In this document: positions 1,716-54,129 of the stretch, piece after piece
Position numbering within the stretch: the stretch's first letter is position 1
Layout of the letters: every line of letters begins with the position of its first letter
From: Eurosta solidaginis
Taxonomy: Eukaryota; Arthropoda; Insecta; Diptera; Tephritidae
NCBI RefSeq assembly: GCF_040869045.1
Contig: NC_090319.1
Location: 302,300,998 to 302,364,997 of the forward strand
Direction of reading: 5' to 3'
DNA: 64,000 nucleotides
Position numbers and translations under genes: made by a program
Notes under the pieces: generated by a model
What the model saw: only the letters and a program-made list of their open reading frames with translations
Told to the model about the DNA's origin: nothing
Databases searched by the model: none

Positions 1716-2433
1716 TCGAGATATCGACCAAAATGTGGGCCAGGGTGACCCGGAACGTCATCTGTTGGATACCGCTAATTTATTTATATATGCAATACCA
1801 CGAACAGTATTCCTGCCAAGATTTCAAGGTTTTTTTATTTCGCCCTGCTCAACTTTTTTATTTTCTTCTACTTAATATGGTAGGTGTCATACCCATTTTA
1901 CAAAGTTTTTTTTCTAAAGTTATAATTTGCGTCAATAAACCAATCCAATTACCATGTTTCATCCCTTTTTTCGTATTTGGTATAGAATTATGGCATTTTT
2001 TCATTTTTCGTAATTTTCGTTATCGAAAAAGTGGGCGTGGTCATAGTCGGATTTCGGCCATTTTTTATACCAAAACAAAGTGGGTCCAGATAAGTACGTG
2101 AACTGAATTTAGTAAAGATATATCGATTTTTGCTCAAGTTATCGTGTTAACGGCCGAGCGGAAGGACAGACGGTCGATTGTGTATAAAAACTGGGCGTGG
2201 CTTCAACCGATTCACAGAAAACAGTTATCGTCCAAGAAGCTCAGCCCCTACCAAATTTATTTATATTTTATTTATTTATTTATTTATTTATTCAGTCTAT
2301 AAAGATACAGGTCTTACAGACTGCCAATAATGGTAGATACAAAAAATATTAACACAAAGATAACAAAATATACATGTAAATATATAGCTTACAAAAAAAT
2401 AATAAGTTCTTATAACAAACAATTTAAAAGCAA

Positions 2434-4344
2434 TTAAATAGCTGACTTTAAAATATTTATAAAAGCGTCCCTACACATAGAAAAATCAAGCTCAATAGAA
2501 GATGAAATCTTATTGAATTCGTTCAGGGCACGTGCAATTGGCGCATTCCTTCCATAATTGGTTCTAATATTGATACCATAAAACGGGCAAACATTACGAA
2601 GATCCCTCCTTGGAACATTAAAATTAATTTCCACAAGAAGGTCAGCGCAGTCTACATCTCCGTGGATAATGCCAAACAAGAAAGTCAAGGAGAGAATAGA
2701 TCTCCTGGCTTCCAGGGATTTAAGATTCAAAAGAAGTAAACGAGCAGTATATGGAGGAAGAGGGTATGTAAACCTTAATGACCGTAAAGCATACTTAAGA
2801 AAAACTTTTTGAACTCGCTCAAGCCTGTTGATTGAGAATTGTTGGAAAGGTCTCCAAATGATGGTAGCATACTCAAGATGAGAACGCACGAATGAGGAGT
2901 AGAGTACTTTTAAAGTATACGGGTCAGAAAACTCCGAACTATTACGCCGAATGAAGCCTAGGATAGCATAGGCCTTGGCAACGATGCAATCAATATGGTT
3001 CACGAACATAAATTTTGTATCAAATACAACCCCAAGATCTTTGATTTTTTCAACAGTCTGCAACGTACTGTTAGCGATACTAAACGAACTGTTGAGATTT
3101 GAACGAGATTTTGAGTAGGTTACGTGGAAGCATTTATTTATATTTAATGAAAGATGAGATCGAATGCACCATGAGTAAAGTTTATCAATATCAGCTTGAA
3201 GATTAATAATATCGTTTGCGGAATTTACAACAGAGTAAACTTTGAGATCATCGGCGTACAACAGAAATCTAGCGTAAGAGAAGCATGAGCTAATGTCATT
3301 GATGAATAAGATAAAAAGCAGTGGTCCCAAAATACTACCCTGCGGGACGCCCGATGTCGCCAAAAAGGGATCTGATGATACCCCATCAATAGAGACGGCA
3401 CACCATCTATTACTTAGATATGATTTTAGCCACTGCAAAAAGGTTGAATGAAAGCCAAGGCAGTACAGCTTGTGAATTAGAACATCATGCGATACCTTAT
3501 CAAAAGCTTTGGAAAAGTCGGTATAAATACAGTCGACCTGAAGACCAGATGAAAAGGCAGAGATACAATATTCACTGAACTCCACAAGATTGGAAACGGT
3601 AAAGCGACCAGAAACAAACCCATGCTGTCTCGGACAGATCAAGTGCTTCACTGAAAAATAAATCTTTTCCTTGACAACGCACTCAAATAGCTTAGAAACG
3701 GTGGAAAGCTTTGAAATTGGCCTGTAATTGCAGACATCAGTCTTACTGCCAGATTTATAAATAGGAGTTATCGAGGCGAATTTCCAAGCATCAATAAACT
3801 CACCAAAGCTAAGTGATAAATTGAACATGATCTCTAACGGGACAACTAGGGAAGTGCATCCTTTTAGCAAGGCAGCCGAGAGACCATCAATGTCAGCTTT
3901 AGTAGAGTTGCTCAGTTTCGAGATGCCACTGAAGATATCTTCAGATGAAATTGACATTGAACCAAAATTTAGGGATGAATAAATTTCAGACGAGAAGTCA
4001 GACGAGGGACTAGCATCATTATTAGCAAAATTAGAACTAAAAAAATCAGCAAACGCGTTAGCCACATTGTGGGGAGTGTTAGCAGGTCTGTCATTGTAGA
4101 AGACGGTGGCAGGCACCGAGGAGCGAGATTTCTTCGACTTAACGTAATTCCAGAATGCTTTCGGGTTAGACTTTATATTCGTCTCAAAGCTTGTAATGTA
4201 GTTTCTGTAAAGAAACTTCTCTAGACAGTTGAAATCCTTCACATAATGTTTATATTTGGTAAGAAATAACGGGTTTTTGGTTCTTTTAAACTTTTTGAAG
4301 AACTTGTTTCTTAAATTCTTCAACTTAACCTTGTTGTGTACCAT
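2434..4344 (-). CDS. LINE-A1 ORF2 reverse transcriptase portion
   Basis: A 636-residue frame with ordered RT motifs: a KSGSKTDVCNYRPIS block near residue 197, IYTDFSKAFDKVSHDVLIHK near 272, TSGVPQGSILGPLLF near 330, the catalytic YADD near 363, and a KDLGVVFD thumb-side block near 434. It ends with a TAA-terminated tail rather than an RNase H domain, which fits CR1/L2-type or jockey-type elements. It is uninterrupted across RT but is separated from its endonuclease by a frameshift, so the copy is probably inactive. It is related to, but clearly a different family from, the LINE at 31642-34265. Confidence 0.9.
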   Translation of the reverse strand: MVHNKVKLKNLRNKFFKKFKRTKNPLFLTKYKHYVKDFNCLEKFLYRNYITSFETNIKSNPKAFWNYVKSKKSRSSVPATVFYNDRPANTPHNVANAFADFFSSNFANNDASPSSDFSSEIYSSLNFGSMSISSEDIFSGISKLSNSTKADIDGLSAALLKGCTSLVVPLEIMFNLSLSFGEFIDAWKFASITPIYKSGSKTDVCNYRPISKLSTVSKLFECVVKEKIYFSVKHLICPRQHGFVSGRFTVSNLVEFSEYCISAFSSGLQVDCIYTDFSKAFDKVSHDVLIHKLYCLGFHSTFLQWLKSYLSNRWCAVSIDGVSSDPFLATSGVPQGSILGPLLFILFINDISSCFSYARFLLYADDLKVYSVVNSANDIINLQADIDKLYSWCIRSHLSLNINKCFHVTYSKSRSNLNSSFSIANSTLQTVEKIKDLGVVFDTKFMFVNHIDCIVAKAYAILGFIRRNSSEFSDPYTLKVLYSSFVRSHLEYATIIWRPFQQFSINRLERVQKVFLKYALRSLRFTYPLPPYTARLLLLNLKSLEARRSILSLTFLFGIIHGDVDCADLLVEINFNVPRRDLRNVCPFYGINIRTNYGRNAPIARALNEFNKISSSIELDFSMCRDAFINILKSAI

Positions 4345-5387
4345 GGCAACCTATATGGTTTCCTTTTCGCAACTGGTACATGCCTCGTACACAGATCAAA
4401 GAGAGTCAACTTAAATATTTCAAAGCAATGACCAACATCAGAGATGGAAAGCAAATTGGCCCAGTCTATTTCAGCTAGATCCTGATCGAGTCTAGAAAAA
4501 TCACACTTCGAAAAGTTAAATGAAAAATCATCAATTAAAGAGCGAGCTCCAAACTCATAAAATTCGAGTTTAAGAATTAGAGCAGAATGGTGCATATCCG
4601 TCGGAGCGAATGGCGCATGGCACTCAGAAAGATTAGAATTTATGTCATTACTAATAAAAATTAGATCTAATATTCTATCGAGCCTGTTTTTGAAACTATT
4701 GATTTGATGCAAATTTAGACTTAAGATATTATCTATAACGTATGACTCAAAAGACTTAGTAATATTATTAGGTAATAGGCCTGACGCAGAGTAACTATGA
4801 GACCAAGAAATATCACAAAGGTTAAAATCCCCTAAAACACATAAGTGATTATCTCCTAATTTACTTAAAACTAGGGACGATATATTGTTGACATGAGCTT
4901 TGTAAATTTCTTCCAAGCTGTTCGGCGGTATGTATGATGCAACCAGATATAGAGATCCAGACTGTGGAGAACCACGGACATTGACGCAGATCTGGTCAAG
5001 GATGGTATCAGAATTATCTAACATAATAAGGGAGGCATTATACTTGCGTTGGACAGCAATTAGTACGCCACCCCCTCTTGAATGCCCAGTTTTAGTACAA
5101 TCCCTGTCCTTACGAAAAACGACGAATAGCTTGGGATCGAAGAACTCAGCGTCGAAAAAATCCGAAGTAAGCCAGGATTCAACAATGACAAAAATATCGT
5201 ACTCCAATTGGCAACTAAATGCTCTCAAAATGTGCGATTTAGTCCTGATACCAGAAGCATTTTGGAAATACACTTTAAGCTGTTTGTTAATTATGTTCTC
5301 ATTACTGCTGGAAACTAGGTGAACTGGAGTTGCTTTTCCACTTGAGGAAAAAAACGGAAAGGGCGAACATTCACACCAGCAGGCCAC
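4320..5387 (-). CDS. LINE-A1 ORF2 endonuclease portion (frameshifted from RT)
   Basis: A 355-residue frame with the signature blocks of an apurinic/apyrimidinic-type (exonuclease-endonuclease-phosphatase) nuclease: QNASGIRTK near residue 42, VESWL near 69, GGGVLIAV near 105, YIPP near 152, GDFNLCDISW near 187, LDLIFIS near 238 and the catalytic D-x-H in TDMHHSAL near 263. In LINEs this nuclease nicks target DNA to prime reverse transcription. The frame ends at 4320, and the reverse transcriptase continues in another phase from 4344, so a one-base slip near 4330 has broken ORF2. The true ORF2 start cannot be fixed because it overlaps ORF1. Confidence 0.85.
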   Translation of the reverse strand: MACWCECSPFPFFSSSGKATPVHLVSSSNENIINKQLKVYFQNASGIRTKSHILRAFSCQLEYDIFVIVESWLTSDFFDAEFFDPKLFVVFRKDRDCTKTGHSRGGGVLIAVQRKYNASLIMLDNSDTILDQICVNVRGSPQSGSLYLVASYIPPNSLEEIYKAHVNNISSLVLSKLGDNHLCVLGDFNLCDISWSHSYSASGLLPNNITKSFESYVIDNILSLNLHQINSFKNRLDRILDLIFISNDINSNLSECHAPFAPTDMHHSALILKLEFYEFGARSLIDDFSFNFSKCDFSRLDQDLAEIDWANLLSISDVGHCFEIFKLTLFDLCTRHVPVAKRKPYRLPWYTTRLS

Positions 5388-28506: not shown

Positions 28507-29418
28507 GCGTCACCCCTCATGCACTTCAGAATTCTGCAGTTCAACTGTAATGGACTAACTGGGAAGATTACGTAGATAGTCGATTTCATGAAGCGGCACA
28601 ACATCCGCATTGCTGCGATTCAAGAGACTAAACTCACAGCAAGATCTGCATTGCAGACCTGCTCTGGTTATAATGTCCACAGGAAAGACCGCGAGAGCGG
28701 AAATGGAGGCGGCCTCGCGTTTATTATACACCACTCTGTGCAATATCATATATTTGATCCTGGCATCGACCGCAGTGACAATGTCTTAGAACGTTAAGGC
28801 CTATCTGTCCGGTCAGGCGATGCAAATCTAGAAATCATCAACATCTACATCCCTCCTGTCACCTGTTGCCCCAGTGGATACCGCCCTAATATCGAGGCCT
28901 TACTCACTGGCAACAATCGCATTATCTTAGGCGATTTCAATGCCCATCACGACCTATGGCATTCAAACCTGCGGGCGGACAGTAGGGGTGAGATGTTGGC
29001 GGATGAAATAGACGAAACGACGTTCTGCACAATAAACGGAGACGCCCCCACACGTATGGTAGGAAGCTGTCATAGCTCGCCAGATATCTCAATCGTAAGC
29101 GCAGAACTCGTAAACTGCGTTAACTGGCAGCCGATGGTAACATTGGCATCCGACCACCTGCCCATACTTATTTCGTTCGAGCGTACCGCCGACTTCATCG
29201 TCACCGAAAAACGCACTTTCATAAACTTCAAAAAAGGAAAGTGGGAAGAATATAAATCTGCAACAGACAGCAGCTTTGCTGCCCTCCCTATCCCGACTGA
29301 TGCCCGCCAAGGGGAGCGTACCTTCCGTAAGGTCATTGAATCCGCCTCGGCACATTTCATTCCCGCCGGGAGAATTCCCGAAATCCGGCCCACTTCCCGG
29401 CGGAGGCCGCGAGCTTAG
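28507..29418 (+). pseudogene. LINE-B copy 1 endonuclease, broken
   Basis: From about 28519 the plus strand reads FRILQFNCNGLTGKIT, a TAG, then FMKRHNIRIAAIQETKL, GNGGGLAFIIHHSV, a TAA at 28795 (copy 2 has a sense CAA codon there), INIYIPP, IILGDFNAHHDLWHS and finally SPDISIVS and SDHLPILIS. These are the ordered motifs of the APE-type LINE endonuclease including the catalytic E, D-x-N and S-D-H. Two nonsense codons make it non-functional. The frame stops at 29416, where RT continues in another phase. Confidence 0.85.
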
Positions 29419-29498
29419 CGAGGGAACGCGACCTTATAAGACAGCTTGATCCAGGCGACCCCCAAATAAGGGATATAAACCAACGAATCAGACTGCTT

Positions 29499-31583
29499 GT
29501 GGACGTACACAAGCGGGCGAAATGGGAAGAGCACCTAAGAGGTTGTAACCTCTCTACCGGTGTAGGTAAACTTTGGTCCACCGTAAAGTCCCTATCGAAT
29601 CCGACTAAGCACAAAGACAAAGTTTCCATCGCCTTTGGCGATAAGGTGCTGTCGGATGCGAAAAAATGCGCGAGCGCTTTCTGCCGACAATATATAATGC
29701 ATCCTACGGTCGACAAAGATAGACGGAGAGCCAATAGACACGCACATAAACACAAACTCAGCGCGTCACCAATTACCATCACCGCTAGAGAGGTTGAGGA
29801 CGCCATTGGTCGCGCTAAACCATCCAAAGCAGTGGGCCCAGACGACATAGCCATGCCGATGCTTAAAAACCTAGGGAAAGAGGGTTTCAAATATTTAGCG
29901 CATGTCTTCAACCTGTCTCTTTCCACCTTTGTCATACCCGAGAAATGGAAAATGGCAAAGGTGGTCCCGCTACTAAAGACTGGGAAACCAGCTAACGTAG
30001 GTGAGTCATATCGTCCGATATCTCTCCTATCGCCAGTGGCAAAGACGCTTGAAGCCATTTTGCTCCCTTATTTCCAAGCACATTTGCAGCTAGCCCCTCA
30101 TCAGCATGGCTTCAGAAAACTCCATAGCACTACCTCCGCGCTAAATGTCATTAGCACCCAGATAAATTGCGGGTTGAATCAATATCCCCACCATAGAACA
30201 GTACTCGTAGCGTTAGACCTATCAAAAGCTTTTGATACGGTCAACCATGGCTCGTTACTGCAAGACCTGGAAGGGTCCACCCTTCCCCCATGTCTTAAAA
30301 GGTGGACCGCAAATTATCTGGGTGGTGGGCATGCATCGGTGCAATTCAGAAACGAAACATCAAAACAAAGGAGAATTAAACAAGGGGTGCCACAGGGTGG
30401 TGTCCTATCCCCGCTTTTGTTTAATTTCTACATATCTAAGCTACCTTCACCACCGGAAGGAGTCACAATCGTTTCCTACGCCGATGACTGCACAATAATG
30501 GCCACAGGCCCAGGCCCAAAGATCGATGAGCTATGCAATAAAATAAACGGCTATCTCCCTGATCTCTCCAGTTTTTTCGCCTCGCGAAACCTGGCATTGT
30601 CACCGACTAAATCTTCCGCGACCTTATTTACAACATGGACGCCCCAAATGTCGACCATATTGAACATCCACGTCGATGGCACTACGCTACCGACTGTCCT
30701 ACACCCCAAAATCTTGGGTGTGACGTTTGATCAGGATCTACATTTTGGTGTGCACGCAACCGCAATTGTTCCAAGAATTCAGAGCCGTAATAAAATCCTC
30801 AAATCCCTTGCTGGCAGTACCTGGGGAAAAGATAAAGAAACGCTCTTGACCACATACAAAGCAATTAGCCAGCCGATTACGTGCTACGCGTCACCCATAT
30901 GGTCGCCAAGCCTAAAAACCACCCACTGGAAGAAACTACAGGCCTGCCAAAATACTGCTCTCAGAATCGCCACGGGCTGTCTTCTTATGTCCCCAGAACA
31001 CCATCTGCATAATGAGGCGAGAATACTCCCCATCAGGGAGAGAAATGAGATGCTGACCAAACAGTTTCTGTTGAATACCCAGAAACCTGGGCATCCCAAC
31101 AGACATCTGATTGACGAACCAGCACCGCCTAGGGGCCTAAGGAGCCATCTCCGTAAGCATTTTGAGGAAATACGGCACCTGAGAACCCAGCCGTATGAAG
31201 CGGAAAAACACAAGCAGGTCCTTGGTGAACTCCATAGACAGGCGTCGGACCTTTATGTCGGGAATTGCCCGGTGAATCCAGTACTTGAAGAAAAATATCC
31301 AGAACTCGCAGAAGAGGAACGCATACTCCCCAGGGAAACGCGTGTCACTCTTGCTCAACTTCGTTCTGGATACTGTAACAGGTTAAACTCTTACCTATCC
31401 AGAATCAACCCCGACATACAAAATGTATGCCCTGCTTGCAATGTGTCCCCACATGACACCAACCATCTCTTTAATTGTAATGTGGAACCAACGCCTCTAA
31501 CACCCCTTTCCTTATGGTCCACCCCTGTTGAAACGGCAAGTTTCCTTGGACTCCCGTTAGAGGATATTGATGACAATTTGTGA
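29499..31583 (+). CDS. LINE-B copy 1 reverse transcriptase with Cys/His tail
   Basis: Open for 694 residues from the first Met, and open further upstream in the same phase to about 29390. Motifs: AKPSKAVGPDDIAMPML near residue 104, GESYRPISLLSPVAKTLEAI near 167, LVALDLSKAFDTVNH near 235, QGVPQGGVLSPLLF near 293, catalytic SYADDCTIM near 327, and KILGVTFDQDLHFG near 403. The C-terminal CPACNVSPHDTNHLFNCN (near 644-661) is a CxxC...HxxxxxC finger common in LINE ORF2. No RNase H domain is present. It fits the jockey/LOA side of LINEs, but the clade is unsettled. RT itself has no lesions. Confidence 0.9.
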   Translation: MDVHKRAKWEEHLRGCNLSTGVGKLWSTVKSLSNPTKHKDKVSIAFGDKVLSDAKKCASAFCRQYIMHPTVDKDRRRANRHAHKHKLSASPITITAREVEDAIGRAKPSKAVGPDDIAMPMLKNLGKEGFKYLAHVFNLSLSTFVIPEKWKMAKVVPLLKTGKPANVGESYRPISLLSPVAKTLEAILLPYFQAHLQLAPHQHGFRKLHSTTSALNVISTQINCGLNQYPHHRTVLVALDLSKAFDTVNHGSLLQDLEGSTLPPCLKRWTANYLGGGHASVQFRNETSKQRRIKQGVPQGGVLSPLLFNFYISKLPSPPEGVTIVSYADDCTIMATGPGPKIDELCNKINGYLPDLSSFFASRNLALSPTKSSATLFTTWTPQMSTILNIHVDGTTLPTVLHPKILGVTFDQDLHFGVHATAIVPRIQSRNKILKSLAGSTWGKDKETLLTTYKAISQPITCYASPIWSPSLKTTHWKKLQACQNTALRIATGCLLMSPEHHLHNEARILPIRERNEMLTKQFLLNTQKPGHPNRHLIDEPAPPRGLRSHLRKHFEEIRHLRTQPYEAEKHKQVLGELHRQASDLYVGNCPVNPVLEEKYPELAEEERILPRETRVTLAQLRSGYCNRLNSYLSRINPDIQNVCPACNVSPHDTNHLFNCNVEPTPLTPLSLWSTPVETASFLGLPLEDIDDNL

Positions 31584-31649
31584 TCGGTCGCGGCTATTAG
31601 GTGGGGCGAGCATTGCTACAACAACAACAACAGCTTCAAGACTGTACAT

Positions 31650-33598
31650 TCATTACATTACATTTGATTAATTTAACCAGGCATGCTTATCCAACGAACC
31701 GACTTAATAACATTAAATCTAGGCTTTATAAGAGGTTCAAGAAATCTGGAGCATCTGCAGACCTCTCTAAATATCTAATAGCTCGTTCTAAATTTCACCG
31801 TCTTAATCAGCTTTGTTATAAAAATTACTTGAGTTGTTGTAAAGCCCAATTTTTTAGAAGTCCAAAAAAGTTTTACAGTTTCGTAAATTCAAAGCGGAAA
31901 ACTTCTGGGTATCCTTCCTCATTAACCTTTGGAGGTAAAAAAGCTTGCACTGATGACGACGTTGCTGAACTATTTTCTGAGTTCTTTAAGTCCACGTATA
32001 CATCCAGTGGTTTTCATTCCGGTCAATATCCCTATCACTTAGATAGCTCAAATTACATTAGGAATCCTGCTGTTGATGGTAATATTGTTCTTCAGAGTCT
32101 TCAATCTTTGAAGCCCACCTTTTCTCCGGGACCGGACGGTGTTCCTAGTTGCGTGCTTAGGTACTGCGCCGAAAACATGTATGAGCCTATTTTAAAATTA
32201 TTTGAGCTATCTCTGGGATCTGCGTCATTCCCGGCACTTTGGAAACAGTCTTTTATTATACCCCTGCATAAAAAAGGTAGTAGGTCAAAAGTTGAAAACT
32301 ACAGGGGTATTGCTAAACTTTCAGTCATTCCTAAAGTCTTTGAACAGATTGTCACCAGTCAACTGCAATATCAGTGTTCTAGTCTTTTATCTGCATACCA
32401 ACACGGTTTTATTCGTCAAAGGTCAACCACTACAAATTTGCTTGTATTCACCTCTATAGTTATGGAAGGATTTTTAGCGAACAAGCAAACGGATGTCATC
32501 TACACGGACTTCAGCACAGCATTTGATACCGTCAACCATGAGTTGCTTATTCATAAGCTTGATTTACTGGGCTTTCCGTTTCACCTATTAATGTGGCTGA
32601 AAAGCTATCTTTCTAACCGGACCCAAAAAGTCCTGTTCAAGTGCAATCTGTCGGAATCGTTCGGAGTTTCCTCCGGCGTACCCCAGGGAAGTCATCTAGG
32701 CCCTTTGCTCTTTGCCCTTTTCATTAATGACTTGCCACAGACAATATTATATTCCCATACTATAATGTATGCGGATGATGTAAAACTTTGCTACACTTAC
32801 TGTCCTACCGATTTGAGTTCCTTGGATATTCTTCAGGCCAACTTGGACTCGTTCCAATGTTGGTGCACAACAAATTTACTAGCTTTAAATTTCTCAAAAT
32901 GTAAGCATATGACATTTCACCGAGTGAAGCCAGCATTGAAATCTTATGTAATAGATGGTACGTCTTTGGAGCGTATATCTATTGCAAATGATCTAGGTGT
33001 CCTTTTTGATCCGAAATTGAATTTTAACATGCATATTTCATCTATAGCCAACAAAGCGTTGGGTTTACTTGGATTTGTTAAAAGATGGGCTAAAGAGTTC
33101 GATGATCCGTACCTCACTAAGGTTCTTTACACATCGCTGGTTCGTCCAATACTCGAGTATTGCTCATGCGTTTGGTCCCCTGTTTCTAAAAAGCATATAA
33201 AGCGTCTTGAGTCAGTTCAAAAGCAATTTTTGATATTTGCATTGCGCGGCCTTAATTGGGACTCAAATCTCCACCTTCCTCCATACAGAAGTAGACTTCT
33301 TCTTATTAACTTACCCACTCTGGAAAATCGGAGAATATTACTGGGGGTATTGTTCATCCATAAGCTCATTATTGGAGAAATTGATTCCGCGGACCTCCTC
33401 AGCCGCTTGTTTTTTGCGGTTCCCCCTAGAGTATCCAGACTCTACGTTCCTTTCTATTTACCCCTTTGTCGACGAAAATTTGCTAAAAATAATCCTCTTC
33501 TTATCTGGTGCGCGCACTAAAATGACTTGTATAGCTGCATCAGTCTTGAATGTACTTTTGCCACTATACGTAATGCAATACTTGCCTATCTAATTTAA
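31650..33598 (+). pseudogene. LINE-A2 reverse transcriptase with a late frameshift
   Basis: RT motifs in order: a PGPDGVPSCVLRYC block near 32130, KKGSRSKVENYRGIAKLSV near 32275, IYTDFSTAFDTVNHELLIHK near 32500, SSGVPQGSHLGPLLF near 32670, catalytic MYADDVKL near 32770 and NDLGVLFDPKL near 32990. The frame ends with TAA at about 33520, but the expected C-terminus (NDLYSCISLECTFATIRNAI) continues in another phase to a TAA at 33596-33598, which aligns with the end of LINE-A1. A one- or two-base indel near 33518 therefore truncates the protein. The frame is open upstream to 31601, but that part belongs to LINE-B. Confidence 0.88.
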
Positions 33599-33723
33599 GA
33601 GATACAAGCTAATTTAATTTGCCGGCATTTTATTCCTTCGATAAAAAAACAGGAACTATTTCGCTTAAGGATGGAGGAACATTTATCAACATGTATCATT
33701 AAGAAGGAACAAGACAGTACTGT

Positions 33724-34032
33724 GTTGATTGGAATCTGGTGCATTCCAACAACGTAAAAAACATGCTTTTTCATGAGTCACTGACCGGAATCGTATGCAT
33801 TCCGGCAGTATAATCTTATGGGTCAGGCATCGAGCTGATTGGAATCCGGTGCATTCCAACAACACAGGTCATGTTACTTTTATGCCTTTTGATGGCGTAT
33901 CCTCATTACACACTCTTAGCCCTGCCGGACTCCCATGACATGCTGATTGGAATCTTGTTGCATTCCAACAGGGAGATTGGAATCCACTGCATTCCGAAAT
34001 CATGCTGAGCGGAATCTGATGCATTCCGCCAG
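33724..34032 (+). repeat. Array of six similar hairpins in the LINE-A2 3' UTR
   Basis: Each unit has a stem NNGGAAT...ATTCCNN with a loop of about 7-8 bases ending GC, and a bulged A below it flanked by a CTG/CAG or GTTG/CAAC lower stem. Upper stems: 33729-33735/33743-33749, 33785-33791/33799-33805, 33839-33845/33853-33859, 33947-33953/33962-33968, 33977-33983/33991-33997 and 34009-34015/34023-34029. The outer two pairs change together: TT/AA in units 1, 3 and 4, CC/GG in unit 2, GC/GC in unit 6, and a wobble pair in unit 5. Function unknown; the pattern says that the fold matters. Confidence 0.85.
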
Positions 34033-34285
34033 TATAAGATTTCGGCATAAGATCTTATTTCTACTCAATTTCTTATTATTAATATATATTGAAATTAAAT
34101 AGTAATGTTCATTAATATTTCTTTGTTTGTAATATAACATTGTTGAAATCTCGATATATCTTAAATTTTATCTTTTGAGTTGCATATTTATATATCTTTT
34201 ATATTATGCAGTCGACCATAGTTTGTCGTCGACTTTAAATAATAAATAAATAAATAAATAAATATGCACTGTTAAAAAAAAAAAA

Positions 34286-34856
34286 ATAAATAAATATCAT
34301 TTCGTTACGATAATTAACGTTAATAAACGAAACAAAGTCATTTCGTTTCGTTTATTAACGATAAGAACGTCAAATTAACGAAATGATTTTGTTTCGTATT
34401 CTGCCCTATCAAAACGAAATCAAATCGTTTATGTTGATTATTAATTTCAAACTATGCTGGCAAATCTGATTGATGGCGGAGTCATTAAAGGTGAAAGCAT
34501 TAGCCAAGCTGATTGCAACTTTTATCATGAATTGTGACAGTGCGAACATTTCTCAGAGTATTTTTGAAATTACCACCAACGAATTACACAAACAAATTAC
34601 ATGGAGTTTGTGTGTGTAAGTCCGCTCGCTGTTACCACCATACTTCACCATGGCTATAGCATTGCCAGCACAATTCAAACATAAAGTACCACGTTTTTGT
34701 TAACGTTTTTAACGTTAACGAAAGCTTTTCGTTTCGGTAAAAAACGAGATACAATTTATCTTGATAATTTCTTTATCGATAATATTTCAAAGTGTTTCAA
34801 CGGAAACGGTGGAAATTTTTTAATAAACGATTAGCTTAACGTTAAGGTGCATCCCT
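34286..34856. mobile_element. Probable hAT-like MITE with internal inverted repeats
   Basis: AACGTTAA, TTTCGTTTCG and TTAACGA phrases occur in both orientations through the segment. The right end, read inward, is CAGGGATGCACCTTAACG, the form of a hAT-type terminal repeat (CAGGGxTG). The left end is blurred by the A-rich LINE tail, so the classification is tentative. No coding capacity. Confidence 0.45.
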
Positions 34857-37787: not shown

Positions 37788-37838
37788 GTTGTTGTTGTTG
37801 TTGTAGCAATGCTCGCCCCACATAATAGCCGCGACCGA

Positions 37839-39928
37839 TCACAAATTGTCATCAATATCCTCTAACGGGAGTCCAAGGAAACTTGCCGTTTCAACAGGGG
37901 TGGACCATAAGGAAAGGGGTGTTAGAGGCGTTGGTTCCACATTACAATTAAAGAGATGGTTGGTGTCATGTGGGGACACATTGCAAGCAGGGCATACATT
38001 TTGTATGTCGGGGTTGATTCTGGATAGGTAAGAGTTTAACCTGTTACAGTATCCAGAACGAAGTTGAGCAAGAGTGACACGCGTTTCCCTGGGGAGTATG
38101 CGTTCCTCTTCTGCGAGTTCTGGATATTTTTCTTCAAGTACTGGATTCACCGGGCAATTCCCGACATAAAGGTCCGACGCCTGTCTATGGAGTTCACCAA
38201 GGACCAGCTTGTGTTTTTCCGCTTCATACGGCTGGGTTCTCAGGTGCCGTATTTCCTCAAAATGTTTACGGAGATGACTCCTTAGGCCCCTAGGCGGTGC
38301 TGGTTCGTCAATCAGATGTCTGTTGGGATGCCCAGGTTTCTGGGTATTCAACAGAAACTGTTTGGTCAGCATCTCATTTCTCTCCCTGATGGGGAGTATT
38401 CTCGCCTCATTATGCAGATGGTGTTCTGGGGACATAAGAAGACAGCCCGTGGCGATTCTGAGAGCAGTATTTTGGCAGGCCTGTAGTTTCTTCCAGTGGG
38501 TGGTTTTTAGGCTTGGCGACCATATGGGTGACGCGTAGCACGTAATCGGCTGGCTAATTGCTTTGTATGTGGTCAAGAGCGTTCCTTTATCTTTTCCCCA
38601 GGTACTGCCAGCAAGGGATTTGAGGATTTTATTACGGCTCTGAATTCTTGGAACAATTGCGGTTGCGTGCGCACCAAAATGTAGATCCTGATCAAACGTC
38701 ACACCCAAGATTTTGGGGTGTAGGACAGTCGGTAGCGTAGTGCCATCGACGTGAATGTTCAATATGGTCGACATTTAGGGCGTCCATGTTGTAAATAAGG
38801 TCGCGAAAGATTTAGTCGGTGACAATGCCAGGTTTCGCGAGGCGAAAAAACTGGAGAGATCAGGGAGATAGCCGTTTATTTTATTGCATAGCTCATCGAT
38901 CTTTGGGCCTGGGCCTGTGGCCATATTGTGCAGTCATCGGCGTAGGAAACGATTGTGACTCCTTCCGGTGGTGAAGGTAGCTTAGATATGTAGAAATTAA
39001 ACAAAAGCGGGGATAGGACACCACCCTGTGGCACCCCTTGTTTAATTCTCCTTTGTTTTGATGTTTCGTTTCTGAATTGCACCGATGCCTGCCGACCACC
39101 CAGATAATTTGCGGTCCACTTTTTAAGACATGGGGGAAGGTTAGACCCTTCCAGGTCTTGCAGTAACGAGCCATGGTTGACCGTATCAAAAGCTTTTGAT
39201 AGGTCTAACGCTACGAGTACTGTTCTATGGTGGGGATATTGATTCAAACCGCAATTTATCTGGGTGCTAATGACATTTAGCGCGGAGGTAGTGCTATGGA
39301 GTTTTCTGAAGCCATGCTGATGAGGGGCTAGCTGCAAATGTGCTTGGAAATAAGGGAGCAAAATGGCTTCAAGCGTCTTTGCCACTGGCGATAGGAGAGA
39401 TATCGGACGATATGACTCACCTACGTTAGCTGGTTTCCCAGGCTTTAGTAGCGGGACCACCTTGGCCATTTTCCATTTCTCGGGTATGACAAAGGTGGAA
39501 AGAGACAGGTTGAAGACATGCGCTAAATATTTGAAACCCTCTTTCCCTAGGTTTTTAAGCATCGGCATGGCTATGCCGTCTGGGCCCACTGCTTTGGATG
39601 GTTTAGCGTGACCAATGGCGTCCTCAACCTCTCTAGCGGTGATGGTAATTGGTGACGCACTGATTTTGTGTTTATGTGCGTGTCTATTGGCTCTCCGTCT
39701 ATCTTTGTCGACCGTAGGATGCATTATATATTGTCGGCAGAAAGCGCTCGCGCATTTTTTCGCATCCGACAGCACCTTATCGCCAAAGGCGATGGAAACT
39801 TTGTCTTTGTGCTTAGTCGGATTCGATAGGGACTTTACGGTGGACCAAAGTTTACCTACACCGGTAGAGAGGTTACAACCTCTTAGGTGCTCTTTCCATT
39901 TCGCCCGCTTGTGTTCGTCCACAAGCAA
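37839..39928 (-). pseudogene. LINE-B copy 2 reverse transcriptase with two lesions
   Basis: RT motifs as in copy 1 (LVALDLSKAFDTVNH, QGVPQGGVLSPLLF, SYADDCTI). Immediately after the catalytic YADD a single-base deletion near 38927 shifts the frame (TIMATGPG becomes TIWPQAQAQ). Further on, CAA in PQMSTI has become TAA at about 38775. The C-terminal half is open from 38774 to 37839 and keeps the CPACN...HLFNCN finger. Confidence 0.88.
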
Positions 39929-40002
39929 TCTGATGCGTTGGTTTATATCCCTTATTTGGGGGTCGCCTGGGTCAAGCTGTCTTATAAGGTCGCGTTCTCT
40001 CG

Positions 40003-40758
40003 CTAAGCTCGCGGCCTCCGCCGGGAGTGGGGCCGGATTTCGGGAATTCTCCCGGCGGGAATGAAATGTGCCGAGGCGGATTCAATGACCTTACGGAAGG
40101 CACGCTCCCCTTGGCAGGCATCAGTCGGGATAGGGAGGGCAGCAAATCTGCTGTCTGTTGCAGATTTATATTCTTCCCACTTTCCTTTTTTGAAGTTTAT
40201 GAAAGTGCGTTTTTCGGTGATGATCAAGTCGGCGGTACGCTCGAACGAAATAAGTATGGGCAGGTGGTCGGATGCAAATGTTACCATCGGCTGCCAGTTG
40301 ACGCAGTTTACGAGTTCTGCGCTCACGATTGAGATATCTGGCGAGCTATGACAGCTTCCTACCATACGTGTGGGGGCGTCTCCGTTTATTGTGCAGAACG
40401 TCGTTTCGTCTATTTGATCCGCCAACATCTCACCCCTACTGTCCGCTCGCAAGTTTGAATGCCATAGGTCGTGATGGGCATTGAAATCGCCTAAGATAAT
40501 GCGATTGTTGCCAGTGAGTAAGGCCTCGATATTAGGGCGGTATCCACTGGGGCAACAGGTGACAGGAGGGATGTAGATGTTGATGATTTCTAGATTTGCA
40601 TCGCCTGACCGGACTGATAGGCCTTGACGTTCTAAGACATTGTCACTGCGGTCGATGCCAGGATCAAATATATGATATTGCACAGAGTGGTGTATAATAA
40701 ACGCGAGGCCGCCTCCATTTCCGCTCTCGCGGTCTTTCCTGTGGACATTATAACCAGA
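40003..40758 (-). pseudogene. LINE-B copy 2 endonuclease fragment
   Basis: Lacks the first catalytic block by truncation. It carries INIYIPP, IILGDFNAHHDLWHS, the SPDISIVS block and SDHLPILIS without stop codons, including a Gln codon where copy 1 has TAA. The frame ends SRRRPRA at 40003, the same place and phase break as copy 1. Confidence 0.85.
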
Positions 40759-41521: not shown

Positions 41522-41835
41522 ATGGTTTGACATTGTCATTTGTCCGGTTGTTTATTTTTCTGTATATGCATTAATACTTTATTTATTGTATAAAAATATA
41601 TTTTAGTGGTAGGCAGAGTATGTTCCTTTATAACCAGCTTTGCGAAATGTATTGCAATTAACAAAAAAAAAACTTGCGCTTGCTCCGTAAAAACTAACAA
41701 AATTCTTTGTTTATCTGCATGTAAAGACTAAAATGGGATTTTCAATGTGATTATTTGGATTTCCGCTTAGATTATATGGACGGTTTCGCCTGTTGAATGA
41801 ACTACCTAATATTGCTGTGCAATCGGAAACCGGCA

Positions 41836-43714
41836 ATGTTGTCGCGACGCAGCAAAGAAAAGGCCACCGCGCACAAAGAAGGTGTGGTTGGTAAGTATGT
41901 AAAAAAGGAGACACCACCAGAGATACCCGTAATAAATGTGTGGACATTTGATGAACAGCGAGCGAAGCATAATAAGAAATCATTGCAGCGTTGTGCGAGT
42001 ACTTCTCCCAGTTGTGAGTTTACAGGCAGAAGCTCTGGTAGTTCTAGTCGGAATACATACTCCTGCGGCAATGACACACAATTCAATACACAACCGGATT
42101 ATTATCATGCCAGACGAGCACATTCTCAATTGCCCCCCAGCACGTCAACAACACTGCGGTCAATGTCACAGAGACGACAGCTACAACAACAGCAACGCTA
42201 TGGAGTAACTGGTTTTTATGCACCCACAGCTGTTGCTGTATCTAATCCCAAGCCACGGCATCCACACTTTTATTCTAGCAATAATTTGGACGTAGGTAGT
42301 AACGGGCATGGACATGCAGGTAGCGCAGGCACCAATAACAATACTGTTGCTAGCAGCAGCAGCAATTATGTTAACATTGAACAAATTGATCGAATGCGTC
42401 GTCAACAGTCATCACCTTTGCTACAACCAAATAGCGCAGCATCTTACGATCAATTTCATCGCAGGCATTCTGCTAACCAAAAACATAATAATTCTTATGA
42501 TGCACGCATACGTGGTGTTGCAAGCACCGAATCGAATGCAGCCGCTATTACTGATGGTATGGATTCCTATAGTAACGTATTTCAAAGGCAACGTGGTGCT
42601 ACACCAACCCCACAACAGCACTATCAAGCCAATGTCAGCTATGCCACTGGGTCTTCAGATTCGTATCCAATATACGAAAATCCTTTTAGAGTTTCATCGA
42701 ATACATCAGGAGGCAGCATCGTTACTAGCAGCAATCATACACCAATAAATAATTTCGATAGCAGCCGTTCAACACTTTCAAATGCTGAAGTACGTTCGGA
42801 ATCACCAATTTATAGTAACACGACCTTGGCTGTGTCCAACAACAATATACACTCTTCATATGATCTGAGTACTGGTACATCAGCAGCAGCTGCTGCTGCA
42901 ACATCTGTACAATCTCTGTATCATGCACCACCAACGCGCCCATTGCACACGCAATCAGTTGCTAATGCGACAAGTACACCGAATGTTTTACAAAAAGTGC
43001 CATCACAGCAGTCTTTAGAGGAAGAGTTACCATTGCCGCCAGGTTGGGCAATGCAATACACCCTACATGGGCGCAAGTATTATATTGATCATCACACGCA
43101 TACAACACATTGGTCGCATCCGCTGGAACGTGAAGGACTGCCAGTTGGCTGGCGACGTGTTGTATCTAAAATGCATGGCACCTACTATGAAAATCAATAT
43201 ACAGGACAATGTCAGCGACAACATCCTTGCCTTACCTCATATTATGTCTATACTACATCTGCGGAGCCTCCCAAGGCAATATGCCCAGAGATTCCAGTTC
43301 CTTACACACAACCTGTGCATACACATAATGCGTTGGTGCCAGCCAATCCATATCTGTTAGAGGAGATACCAAAGTGGCTGGTTGTATATTCGAATGCTGA
43401 TTCATCGAAAGACCATATGCTGCAATTTAACATGTTTAGTTTGCAGGAGCTTGAATGCTTTGATGGTATGTTGGTGCGTCTATTTAAACAAGAGCTTGGC
43501 ACTATAGTTGGCTTTTACGAACGTTACAGGTGCGTAATAGATAAACTGTTAATGCTGCATGATTATTAACTTTTTCATAAAATATTTACTTTAGTCTTAA
43601 TATTTAAATTGTTTTTATTTTATTAGACGCGCTTTAATTTTAGAAAAGAATAGACGCGCTGAGCAAGAACGTTATTTGCAAGAGTTGCATACACAACAAC
43701 CCCAACACCAATAA
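41836..43714 (+). CDS. sav: Salvador, WW and SARAH domain scaffold of the Hippo pathway
   Basis: Coding exons 41836-43529 and 43627-43714 with a 97-base intron (GTGCGT donor, TTTATTAG acceptor, split Arg codon) give 593 residues, close to the roughly 600 of the Drosophila protein. The start chosen is the second in-frame ATG, giving [16 protein letters not shown], a conserved fly N-terminus; an upstream ATG at 41797 would add 13 unconserved residues. A long Ser/Gln/His-rich disordered part leads to WW domain 1 ([20 protein letters not shown], about 398-432), an atypical WW 2 lacking the second Trp (LPVGWRRV...QRQHP, about 435-468), and a C-terminal SARAH coiled coil (about 528-588) completed by exon 2. 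Salvador links Hippo kinase to Warts at the cell cortex and restrains growth. The frame is intact. Confidence 0.95.
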
Positions 43715-51720: not shown

Positions 51721-54129
51721 CTGTTATGGAAACGCATCTACGGTGGAAGCAGTAAGTAAGGAAGGCGGTCGGCATGATGTTGTGGTGCACAGTGGCTAGT
51801 CATTGCCGGATGGGGCGGGTCCTTGCCAACCTTACTGTTCCAGCGCCATAAACAGAAAAAGTTCCTATCATGCCTATCAAACTAGCAGCTGTCAAATTTA
51901 AAATAAACTGACAGAAGCGCAGAGACGACTCAAAACGCTTATAATTCAAAATAAAACAACATCCGGCCGAACCGGATGTCACGGACAGACCGTTAACATT
52001 CAAACAATTTAAACTTCAAAAAAAACTAACGCAAAAAAAAAAATTACACTATGAAAATGTAGGTAAGTGTGTGTAGTGCATAAGTGAGAGAAAAAAAAAA
52101 TGATCCAACAGATCACACTTTATTGGGCCGAAATCGAAACGAAATCTAATATGAATACTTAAGTCTGACTAAGCTTGTTCTGTTGGGGGTTCTTTTCTTT
52201 TCTCTTACTTTTGCTCGTAATATTTTAAATTATACAATTATTTACGTCTACCCCTTTTTTTTTATAATCGTTATAAACGCTATGTGTGGAAAAATATGTA
52301 ATTAAATGTACTTATGTATAGTAAATATACTACATACAACGTTAGAATTTGGTCGAGTACCCCTTTTCTGTTTTCCCTTCACAAAACATATTTTAGGGCT
52401 ATAAAGTTGGGATACAAATTCCGATTATTGGGGCTCTCTTACAAAATTATTATGTTGTTGTAGTAGAACTTATTTAACAAAATATCAATTTGGTATAACG
52501 CACAGTATAATGACACTAACATGTAATATGTACCAAGAAAACTTGTTATAAAAGCAATAAAGATTAAATTTGTATAGCGCTATGTATTATATGCACGTAT
52601 ATTATTTCCAAAAATGGATCGTTAAAACGTTTCACGTGATAAGGACGGCTTATTATCAATAAAATTTATAGAGCTAACTTCAAACATTTTAAAGCGACAA
52701 AATATATTATTAAAATGATATAAAAAAAGGATGTATGCCCTTTGCTGTAAAGCTAACAATTTCAAGTATTCAATAATAAAATTTGACGGGAAAAATCGAC
52801 CCTTGTTAAATAGTTCACCCGGACTGTATAAAACCCTCTAAGTACCACTTAGAAATTTCTTTAACTACCCTGCAAAAACGCTCTCGTCATTCCACGTCAT
52901 TTGACTAGCTATTATACAGTCATAGGTTATATTCCTAGTCACATTTGCATGGGCGTGGGTAAGTTTTATGACCAAATTTTTTTGTAGGGTAATTATTTTG
53001 AAGTTCATACATGGCTGGTACTTACATGGCCGCCAGAGTACGTACCGTGGGCCTCTGCCGGCGTGGTTACTGGTGATGTTGTTGTTGCTGGTGAAGTTGT
53101 CGCTGTTGTTGGTTATGGCGCGCGGTCTTGGGCGCGCTGTGTTGGTACTGTTGGTGGTTGTTGCGCTCTGGTCCGAGGTGATCAAGTGAACCTGGTGGCA
53201 ATAAAACTTCGTGTTGACCTTTACGATCTGGATGACTTGGTGATAACTTTGGCGTTCGTTGTATTACGCTGCAGTGTACTGCTGGCCCTGGAGGCGGAGG
53301 TGGTGTTGGACGCTTATCCAAAGGTGGTGGTGTACGTCGTAAACGTAGAGAAAGGAATTTATCTTCGGATACCAAGGGTTTCTCATCAACAATTTGTTTA
53401 CTGCCGTCCGAATCCGAATCGGAATCACTATAACTTTCCTCACTAGGTGTGACTGTGAAACGCCGACCTACTACTTCAACTGGATAGTCTTTACGTTGAG
53501 CTTGTGTCCACACAACACAACCGTTGTAAGGTTTATTACCACCCAAAATAGACGAGTAAAAACGAGGTTTGACGGAATGAACTGGTCGGTACTTTGCGCT
53601 ATCGACTCTTTCCTAGTTTCTGGGCATTTTCTCGTTTGTTATTTTGGTAGTTGGGTGAAGGAATCGGCAATTCCTCGTTGCGGTCTTGTGGTTCTTCACA
53701 ATACTCTCTTGAATATGTGCACAGCACGGCGAGGGTGTTTTGCGATGAGTTGAATATAGTCGGGGATGTGAAGTTGATGTAAGCAATAGTGTTAATGAAG
53801 CAGGAGCTGTGCTTGATGCCTTTTCCTCTTTGGTTTATAAAATTTTCCGATTAACTGCGCAAAAGAAAAGCAAACTCTTGCTTTTTCCTGGCCGGAAAAA
53901 CGTGCTATCTTTTTGCTTTTCTTTTTCTAAATTTTTTTCACGTCATCTTCGTTTTACTTGCGGCCGGAAACTCATGGCTTTTTTCGCTAGTGATCGCCGG
54001 TCTTTCTTTCTTGTTTTTCGATACTTTTGTATCGCAACTTTCGCCTATCACCAGGCACTAAGTGTGTTCGCACGAAAACGCTCACAAGTGGACCGTAACC
54101 GTAGACCATAACAGCAGACCGTAACAAAG
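51721..54129. mobile_element. Insertion of about 2.4 kb with inverted ends, carrying a gene-like frame
   Basis: Interrupts LINE-D copy 4 exactly between GK and QVCRC. The left end CTGTTATGGAAACGCATCTA, CGGT and the right end read inward (TGTTACGGTCTGCTGTTATG, GTCTACGGT) share TGTTAYGG and TCTACGGT in inverted orientation, so a DNA transposon with short, imperfect terminal repeats is likely. A clean target duplication is not visible (AAG at both sides at best). No transposase is recognised. The inside has a 1.1-kb AT-rich part and the minus-strand frame at 53067-53630. Confidence 0.55.
53067..53630 (-). pseudogene. Unidentified gene-like frame inside the insertion
   Basis: Minus strand. After a TAG the frame runs about 187 residues to TAA at 53067; the first Met is at 53546. 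It includes KYRPVHSVKPRFYSSILGGN, NGCVVWTQAQRKDYPVEVVG, an acidic Ser/Asp run (SYSDSDSDSDGSK), LSLRLRRTPPPLDKRPTPPP, and a Gln/His-rich end. Upstream in another phase is a second protein-like stretch (LAVLCTYSREYCEEPQDRNE, then LPIPSPNYQNNKRENAQKLG), so a frameshift near 53615 is likely. Composition is that of a host protein rather than a transposase. I do not recognise the family. A captured host exon or processed transcript is one reading; a transposon-own accessory gene is another. Confidence 0.4.

Follow-up and report, generated by a model that had tools for sequence, protein, structure and literature searches.

A BS-like LINE of Eurosta solidaginis carries in its 3' UTR an array of six hairpins with paired changes, a possible docking site for an RNA-binding protein

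Why should a LINE carry six similar hairpins in a row in its 3' UTR? Six such units lie at 33724-34033 on the + strand of the window (the whole 64,000-nucleotide stretch of Eurosta solidaginis DNA analysed), where a BS-like LINE truncated at its 5' end has its 3' UTR, and we found no such hairpin array in a LINE described in the titles and abstracts listed by our searches of open-licence PMC papers. We describe here the anatomy of the array, the paired changes among its six units and its retention in a recently amplified family. The reading that we favour, with a probability of about one half, is that the array would act in the plus-strand RNA by docking several copies of one RNA-binding protein, either the element's own ORF1p or a host protein.

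An earlier note, made from the letters alone, had placed the hairpins in a LINE 3' UTR, and this location is borne out by the RT match, by alignment of the protein's C-terminus and by tblastn with the best protein relative, P0003, which is 69% identical to the LINE RT frame over 31703-33592. The copy in the window is not full-length: it begins at P0003 residue 284, is without the endonuclease part and without ORF1, and has a premature stop in its RT frame at 33518-33520. Among the best 120 of 2452 matches to the RT, one is named from transposon BS (52% identity) and several of the named matches come from flies; judged by these similarities the RT is closest to BS-type fly elements, and we take the LINE to belong to the jockey clade. 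Some of the 3' UTR computations below started at 33597 rather than 33599.

The pattern GGAATC-N3/4-TGCATTCC occurs in six copies in the array (Table 1), and GGAAT-N5..10-ATTCC, searched for across all 64 kb, has a single other match (at 53660), which is without the C..TGC loop. The constant GGAAT/ATTCC core that had been noticed is indeed present in 6/6 units, and the loop frame C..TGC is equally invariant. The unpaired A, claimed for at least units 1, 2, 4 and 6, stands at the bulge position in every one of the six, and it is in those four that the three inner lower-stem pairs are complete. The lower stem had been described as alternating between two types; unit 3 combines the 5' arm of one type with the 3' arm of the other, which leaves a C-A mismatch, and unit 5 is interrupted, being without two inner lower pairs so that its A sits in an internal loop. 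The outer two pairs are TT/AA in units 1, 3 and 4, CC/GG in unit 2 and GC/GC in unit 6; unit 5 has TT/GA, in which a U-G wobble accompanies a single Watson-Crick pair. The statement that these pairs are always complementary is thus correct if wobble is allowed but not strictly.

Table 1. Positions in the window of the hairpin units, the LINE that carries them and the predicted larger folds.
Feature	Position	Strand	Description
LINE RT-bearing frame, 3' two thirds	31703-33598	+	P0003 residues 284-913; RVT_1 match, C-terminus alignment
LINE 3' UTR up to (AATA)n tail	33599-34262	+	Block conserved in 16 genomic copies including the window copy
Unit 1	33724-33753	+	GTTG-A-TTGGAAT-C TGG TGC-ATTCCAA-CAAC
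Unit 2	33780-33809	+	ACTG-A-CCGGAAT-C GTA TGC-ATTCCGG-CAGT
Unit 3	33834-33863	+	GCTG-A-TTGGAAT-C CGG TGC-ATTCCAA-CAAC; C-A mismatch in lower stem
Unit 4	33942-33972	+	GCTG-A-TTGGAAT-C TTGT TGC-ATTCCAA-CAGG; loop longer by 1 base
Unit 5	33972-34001	+	GGAG-A-TTGGAAT-C CAC TGC-ATTCCGA-AATC; lacks two inner lower pairs, has a U-G wobble; A/T polymorphism at 33998
Unit 6	34004-34033	+	GCTG-A-GCGGAAT-C TGA TGC-ATTCCGC-CAGT
Outer helices around unit 2 (predicted)	33763-33768 with 33825-33830; 33770-33777 with 33815-33822	+	Minimum-energy folds
Outer helix around unit 6 (predicted)	33994-34001 with 34038-34045	+	AA bulge at 34036-34037; fold
Alternative unit 1:unit 3 fold around unit 2 (predicted)	33720-33867	+	33720-33727 with 33860-33867 (8 pairs); minimum-energy folds, base-pair probabilities
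Terminal hairpin	34210-34234	+	AGTCGAC/GTCGACT, adjoining (AATA)n tail; candidate RT tail signal

Do the two sides of these stems change together? The 12 proposed pairs in six units make 72 cells, 68 of which (94.4%) are paired; the unpaired four are in unit 3 (one), unit 4 (one) and unit 5 (two). Six of the 12 pairs never vary, four have changed on both sides (seven cells), and two depart by unpaired cells only. In 500 shuffles, the observed covariation score, the percentage paired and the seven double-changed cells were never reached, the observed pair types were reached in 3 shuffles and the four both-side-changed pairs in 17. Slid alignments gave at most 38.9% paired cells and a score of 0.156, versus the observed 94.4% and 0.328; the version slid by +1 equals the observed count of 4 both-side-changed pairs. 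Permutation of whole 3' arms reached the observed pairing in 4 of 720 arrangements for all variable pairs and in 24 of 720 when only the outer pairs were counted. A neutral simulation (independent substitutions from a fully paired ancestor) on one plausible tree gave P=0.00018 for paired cells, 0.0009 for outer pairs and 0.008 for double changes, and on 150 random trees P rose to at most 0.0013 for the paired cells and to at most 0.051 for the double changes. One of the seven double-changed cells (unit 5, columns 8-36) lies beyond two broken pairs, and because units 2 and 6 share one, the independent outer-pair double changes number at most three by our count. The compensatory change that the earlier note saw in the set does go beyond most of the controls, whether shuffled, slid or simulated, although the mismatched lower stem of unit 3 speaks against strict compensation at that place, and with few units, one family and common ancestry of units 2 and 6 the covariation evidence is good but not overwhelming.

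The spacing of the units had been called irregular, but it is partly regular: the starts of the TT/AA units 1, 3 and 4 are 110 and 108 nt apart, and those of units 2 and 6 are 224 nt apart. Identity between units ranges from 60 to 93%; units 2 and 6 are 83% identical, yet their outer pair is flipped. Six of the seven spacer comparisons are not above shuffles at the 10% level, the only one that beats them being the sequence after unit 2 versus that after unit 6 (reached by 17/500 shuffles), with the sequences before units 4 and 1 next best (70/500). These comparisons suggest that the units are old duplicates and that their hairpins have outlasted the sequence around them. A search of the spacer between units 3 and 4 for a decayed unit gave weak likeness only (25/500 shuffles for unit 2 and 157/500 for unit 6). 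The earlier note had set an origin by one recent duplication with chance changes against selection on structure; the units have indeed been duplicated, partly as a repeat of ~110 nt.

How widely is the array distributed? When the whole genome was searched, 1537 candidate places came up at first look. Scores were obtained for 40 of them, namely the window itself and 39 further places that are each 98% identical, and 36 copies were read, including that in the window. All six exact cores are kept in 34 of these 36, and the copies are so nearly identical that they are too alike for the covariation check across copies that had been suggested. The 3' UTRs of 16 copies (window included) have 0-9 differences from the majority over about 666 positions, which indicates that the family burst was recent. 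Since most copies were probably dead on arrival, retention of the cores tells that the array was present in the active lineage, not that each copy was under selection. Relative to the majority, the 36 copies have 28 substitutions within the 180 positions of the units, two shared polymorphic sites accounting for 18 of these, and 22 within 183 positions outside.

None of the three distant relatives whose 3' end was identified (the LINE at 2250-5387 and those in sampled stretches L145 and L159) has the array; their matched RT pieces are at 38-45% or less identity. The array is therefore not required by BS-like LINEs in general, and it looks like a lineage-specific addition. A random sample of 20 stretches of 10 kb contained no second copy of the hairpin LINE; three of its stretches contain a related RT's C-terminal piece (a 3' end is identifiable in two), and the array is in none of the three. 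A pattern that required purines at the 5' outer letters and pyrimidines at the 3' ones matched once in 1.9 Gb. We estimate that about two such matches are expected by chance, and around this one there was no recognised relative of the hairpin LINE and no second unit in the surrounding 3 kb. Among viral contigs a 14-base pattern matched at least 120 stretches (one match each among the 80 matches listed), a 21-base pattern matched none, and no encoded relatives were found; prokaryote contigs gave four distant relatives at 30-35% identity.

The fold energy of 33700-34060 has a z of -4.4 on the + strand (100 shuffles) and -3.9 on the - strand; folding of the - strand is expected for near-palindromes, and energy thus cannot tell which strand is meant. 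The transcript of the LINE corresponds to the + strand, as is established for LINEs. Three cells pair as + strand RNA only (unit 5 U-G, unit 5 G-U and unit 6 G-U) and one as - strand RNA only (unit 3 C-A), and by this measure the letters lean towards the + strand without settling the matter. Folded singly, units 1, 2, 4 and 6 have z values of -2.0 to -4.3, and units 3 and 5 (-0.5 each) are no better than shuffles. The single-unit folds predict the bulged A in units 1, 2, 3, 4 and 6, and in units 1, 2, 4 and 6 a C-G loop-closing pair with a bulged C on the 3' side; as modelled, the C..UGC frame is probably this C-G pair plus bulged C.

Larger folds are also predicted. With pairs limited to 100 nt, units 1, 2, 4 and 6 of one genomic copy (L127) form with probabilities of 0.98-0.99, unit 3 with 0.59 and unit 5 with 0.03; with no distance limit the local hairpins of units 1 and 3 are at 0.00, since unit 1 then pairs with unit 3, and folds of the whole 3' UTR have this pairing, enclosing unit 2, in both the window copy and L127. 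The duplex energy of the flanks was reached by 15/400 shuffles for unit 2 and 11/400 for unit 6 (six flanks tested), and the flanks of units 1, 3, 4 and 5 are within shuffles (262, 178, 124 and 126 of 400); the corresponding test for the extension of the unit 1:unit 3 fold is weak (34/400). As six flanks were tested, these predictions are no more than suggestive of two classes of unit, short hairpins with TT/AA outer pairs and longer hairpins with CC/GG or GC/GC. Position 33998, in the overlap of unit 5 with the outer helix of unit 6, is A in 12 and T in 24 of the 36 copies: T adds a pair to the unit 5 stem and loses one from the unit 6 outer helix, which A completes.

Could the array be the site that the RT recognises, as had been suggested? 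In zebrafish LINEs of the stringent type a tail stem-loop is recognised by the ORF2 protein, according to PMC4176376. That stem-loop is likewise a hairpin in a LINE 3' UTR but stands in the 3' tail, where the hairpin LINE has its own candidate, separate from the array; about 180 nt lie between the array end and this terminal hairpin, and the array is not adjacent to the 3' tail. The LINE at 2250-5387 (-) has a hairpin at the corresponding tail position (2266-2350, -), and by eye an AGTC..GACT precedes an AATAAA-like tail in L145 (7200-8110) and L159 (4200-5060); automatic alignment of the four terminal hairpins gave no consensus structure. Because a separate hairpin adjoins the tail, and a like structure occurs in relatives without the array, an RT-binding role for the array is unlikely, and the array is probably not the RT tail signal.

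What, then, would the array bind? The core, loop frame and bulge are invariant while the stem tolerates paired change, and it is for this reason that we favour a docked protein. One RNA-binding protein would read the core (GGAAU/AUUCC), the loop frame (C..UGC) and the bulged A, leaving the outer pairs of the stem free to change provided that pairing is kept, and the repetition of the unit suggests that several copies of this protein might sit side by side on a multivalent docking site. The RT role would already be taken by the separate terminal hairpin. The likeliest partner may be the element's Gag-like ORF1p, which could assemble or mark the RNP in this way; a host germline RNA-binding protein is nearly as likely. 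A bolder version, which we consider doubtful, is that a virus-like array of two hairpin classes in the LINE 3' UTR might nucleate the element's own ORF1p, giving cis-packaging and aiding the recent burst of copies. To our knowledge, how LINE proteins choose their own RNA is largely open beyond the 3' tail hairpin. The repeated hairpin is a compact reagent (30 nt, with six natural variants) for finding the bound protein, and it allows cis preference, localisation or translation control to be tested.

In the MS2 operator and the iron-responsive element a short stem, with one base bulged out of its 5' strand, carries a small loop that is conserved; they share with the array this plan of bulge and loop but differ from it in bulge-to-loop distance and loop letters. 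Rfam includes the iron-responsive element family; a scan of the window gave no Rfam family at gathering score, this one included, and three weak matches to other families (E 1.7-9.6). Another parallel is the 3' UTR of alfalfa mosaic virus, described in PMC9414508 as a linear array of short hairpins with AUGC motifs that offers several independent coat-protein sites. Both have short hairpins in line in a 3' UTR, but the alfalfa mosaic virus array is in a viral RNA with a known binding protein and the AUGC motifs at its flanks are of importance, whereas the constant letters of the LINE array are in the core and loop.

The strongest rival to a docked protein, unlikely in our view, is mutational and involves no selected function: a chance palindrome would have been tandem-duplicated, and template switching from arm to arm, during DNA replication or reverse transcription, would have made each paired change in one step. 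Such switching can create stems and explain multibase compensatory changes, and its role in maintaining short stems is called less clear by the authors of the same account (PMC8794818). The 110 and 108 nt steps between units 1, 3 and 4 would on this account be tandem duplication, and the flipped outer pair of the 83% identical units 2 and 6 and the missing array in 3/3 relatives also fit. Switching alone should, however, erase asymmetry, and all 6/6 units have kept both their C..TGC frame and the A on the 5' side; the core and frame are moreover constant while 6/7 spacer comparisons are without clear similarity. A different rival, which we judge improbable, holds that the units are not independent but parts of larger domains (one in which units 1 and 3 pair and enclose unit 2, and the extended stems of units 2 and 6), the outer-pair differences serving to prevent mispairing between classes. 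The minimum-energy folds, the near-zero local probabilities of units 1 and 3, the flanks of units 2 and 6 that pair beyond most shuffles when the other four do not, and the fact that unit 1:unit 3 pairing avoids the mismatched lower stem of unit 3 all speak for such a compound fold. Near-identical palindromes can, however, always pair, so that the unit 1:unit 3 fold is partly automatic and its flank test is the weak one; 24 of the 36 copies carry the letter that loses a pair of the unit 6 extension, and six flanks were tested.

It is highly improbable that the units are linear sites with an incidental palindrome, read through CATTCC as a TEAD/Scalloped-like motif or through a microRNA-1-like 6-mer seed match: TGCATTCC is constant in 6/6 units, but the complementary arm, the bulged A and the paired changes outside the motif are seen and would not be needed. 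About as improbable is an Egalitarian-BicD-type localisation signal that moves the LINE RNA, as in the Drosophila I factor. The Egl-BicD signals, the I factor included, resemble the array as stem-loops in fly mRNAs and retrotransposon RNA, with two stem-loops per RNA favouring transport, and are described as requiring two helices, an upper and a lower one, each no shorter than 6 bp, with bulges on the 3' strand and favoured pairs at two sites 8 bp apart, U-A being best (PMC13186709). The array differs in bulge strand, helix lengths and U-A spacing: its conserved bulged A is on the 5' strand, its lower stems are mostly 3-4 bp, and its conserved U-A pairs (columns 9-35 in 5/6 and 18-27 in 6/6 units) have 7 bp between them. 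The array does not fit these rules, but some room is left by the predicted extensions of units 2 and 6, which may be longer stems with 3'-biased bulges. Least probable of all are Smaug recognition elements, which are likewise short hairpins and frequently occur more than once in an RNA; their loop opens with C and has the consensus CNGGN0-3 (PMC4053848); the loops of units 1 (CUGG) and 3 (CCGG) fit, but the other 4/6 do not, and the constant frame is C..UGC.

The neighbourhood of the array in the window contains further elements. Directly after the LINE tail, 34288-34394 is self-complementary (74% over about 110 nt) and is possibly a small palindromic element. Another LINE is present as two copies in opposite orientation, at 29001-31632 and 37790-40420, which are 98.5% identical over 2632 nt, and the former ends just upstream of the 5'-truncated hairpin LINE. 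The third LINE, at 2250-5387 (-), has an RT 38% identical to that of the hairpin LINE; its 3' UTR is short, with a hairpin at the tail, and the tail itself is an AATA repeat. The coding frame of salvador, a Hippo-pathway gene whose product is 99% identical to the Eurosta solidaginis record, lies at 41797-43569 (+), about 8 kb from the array.
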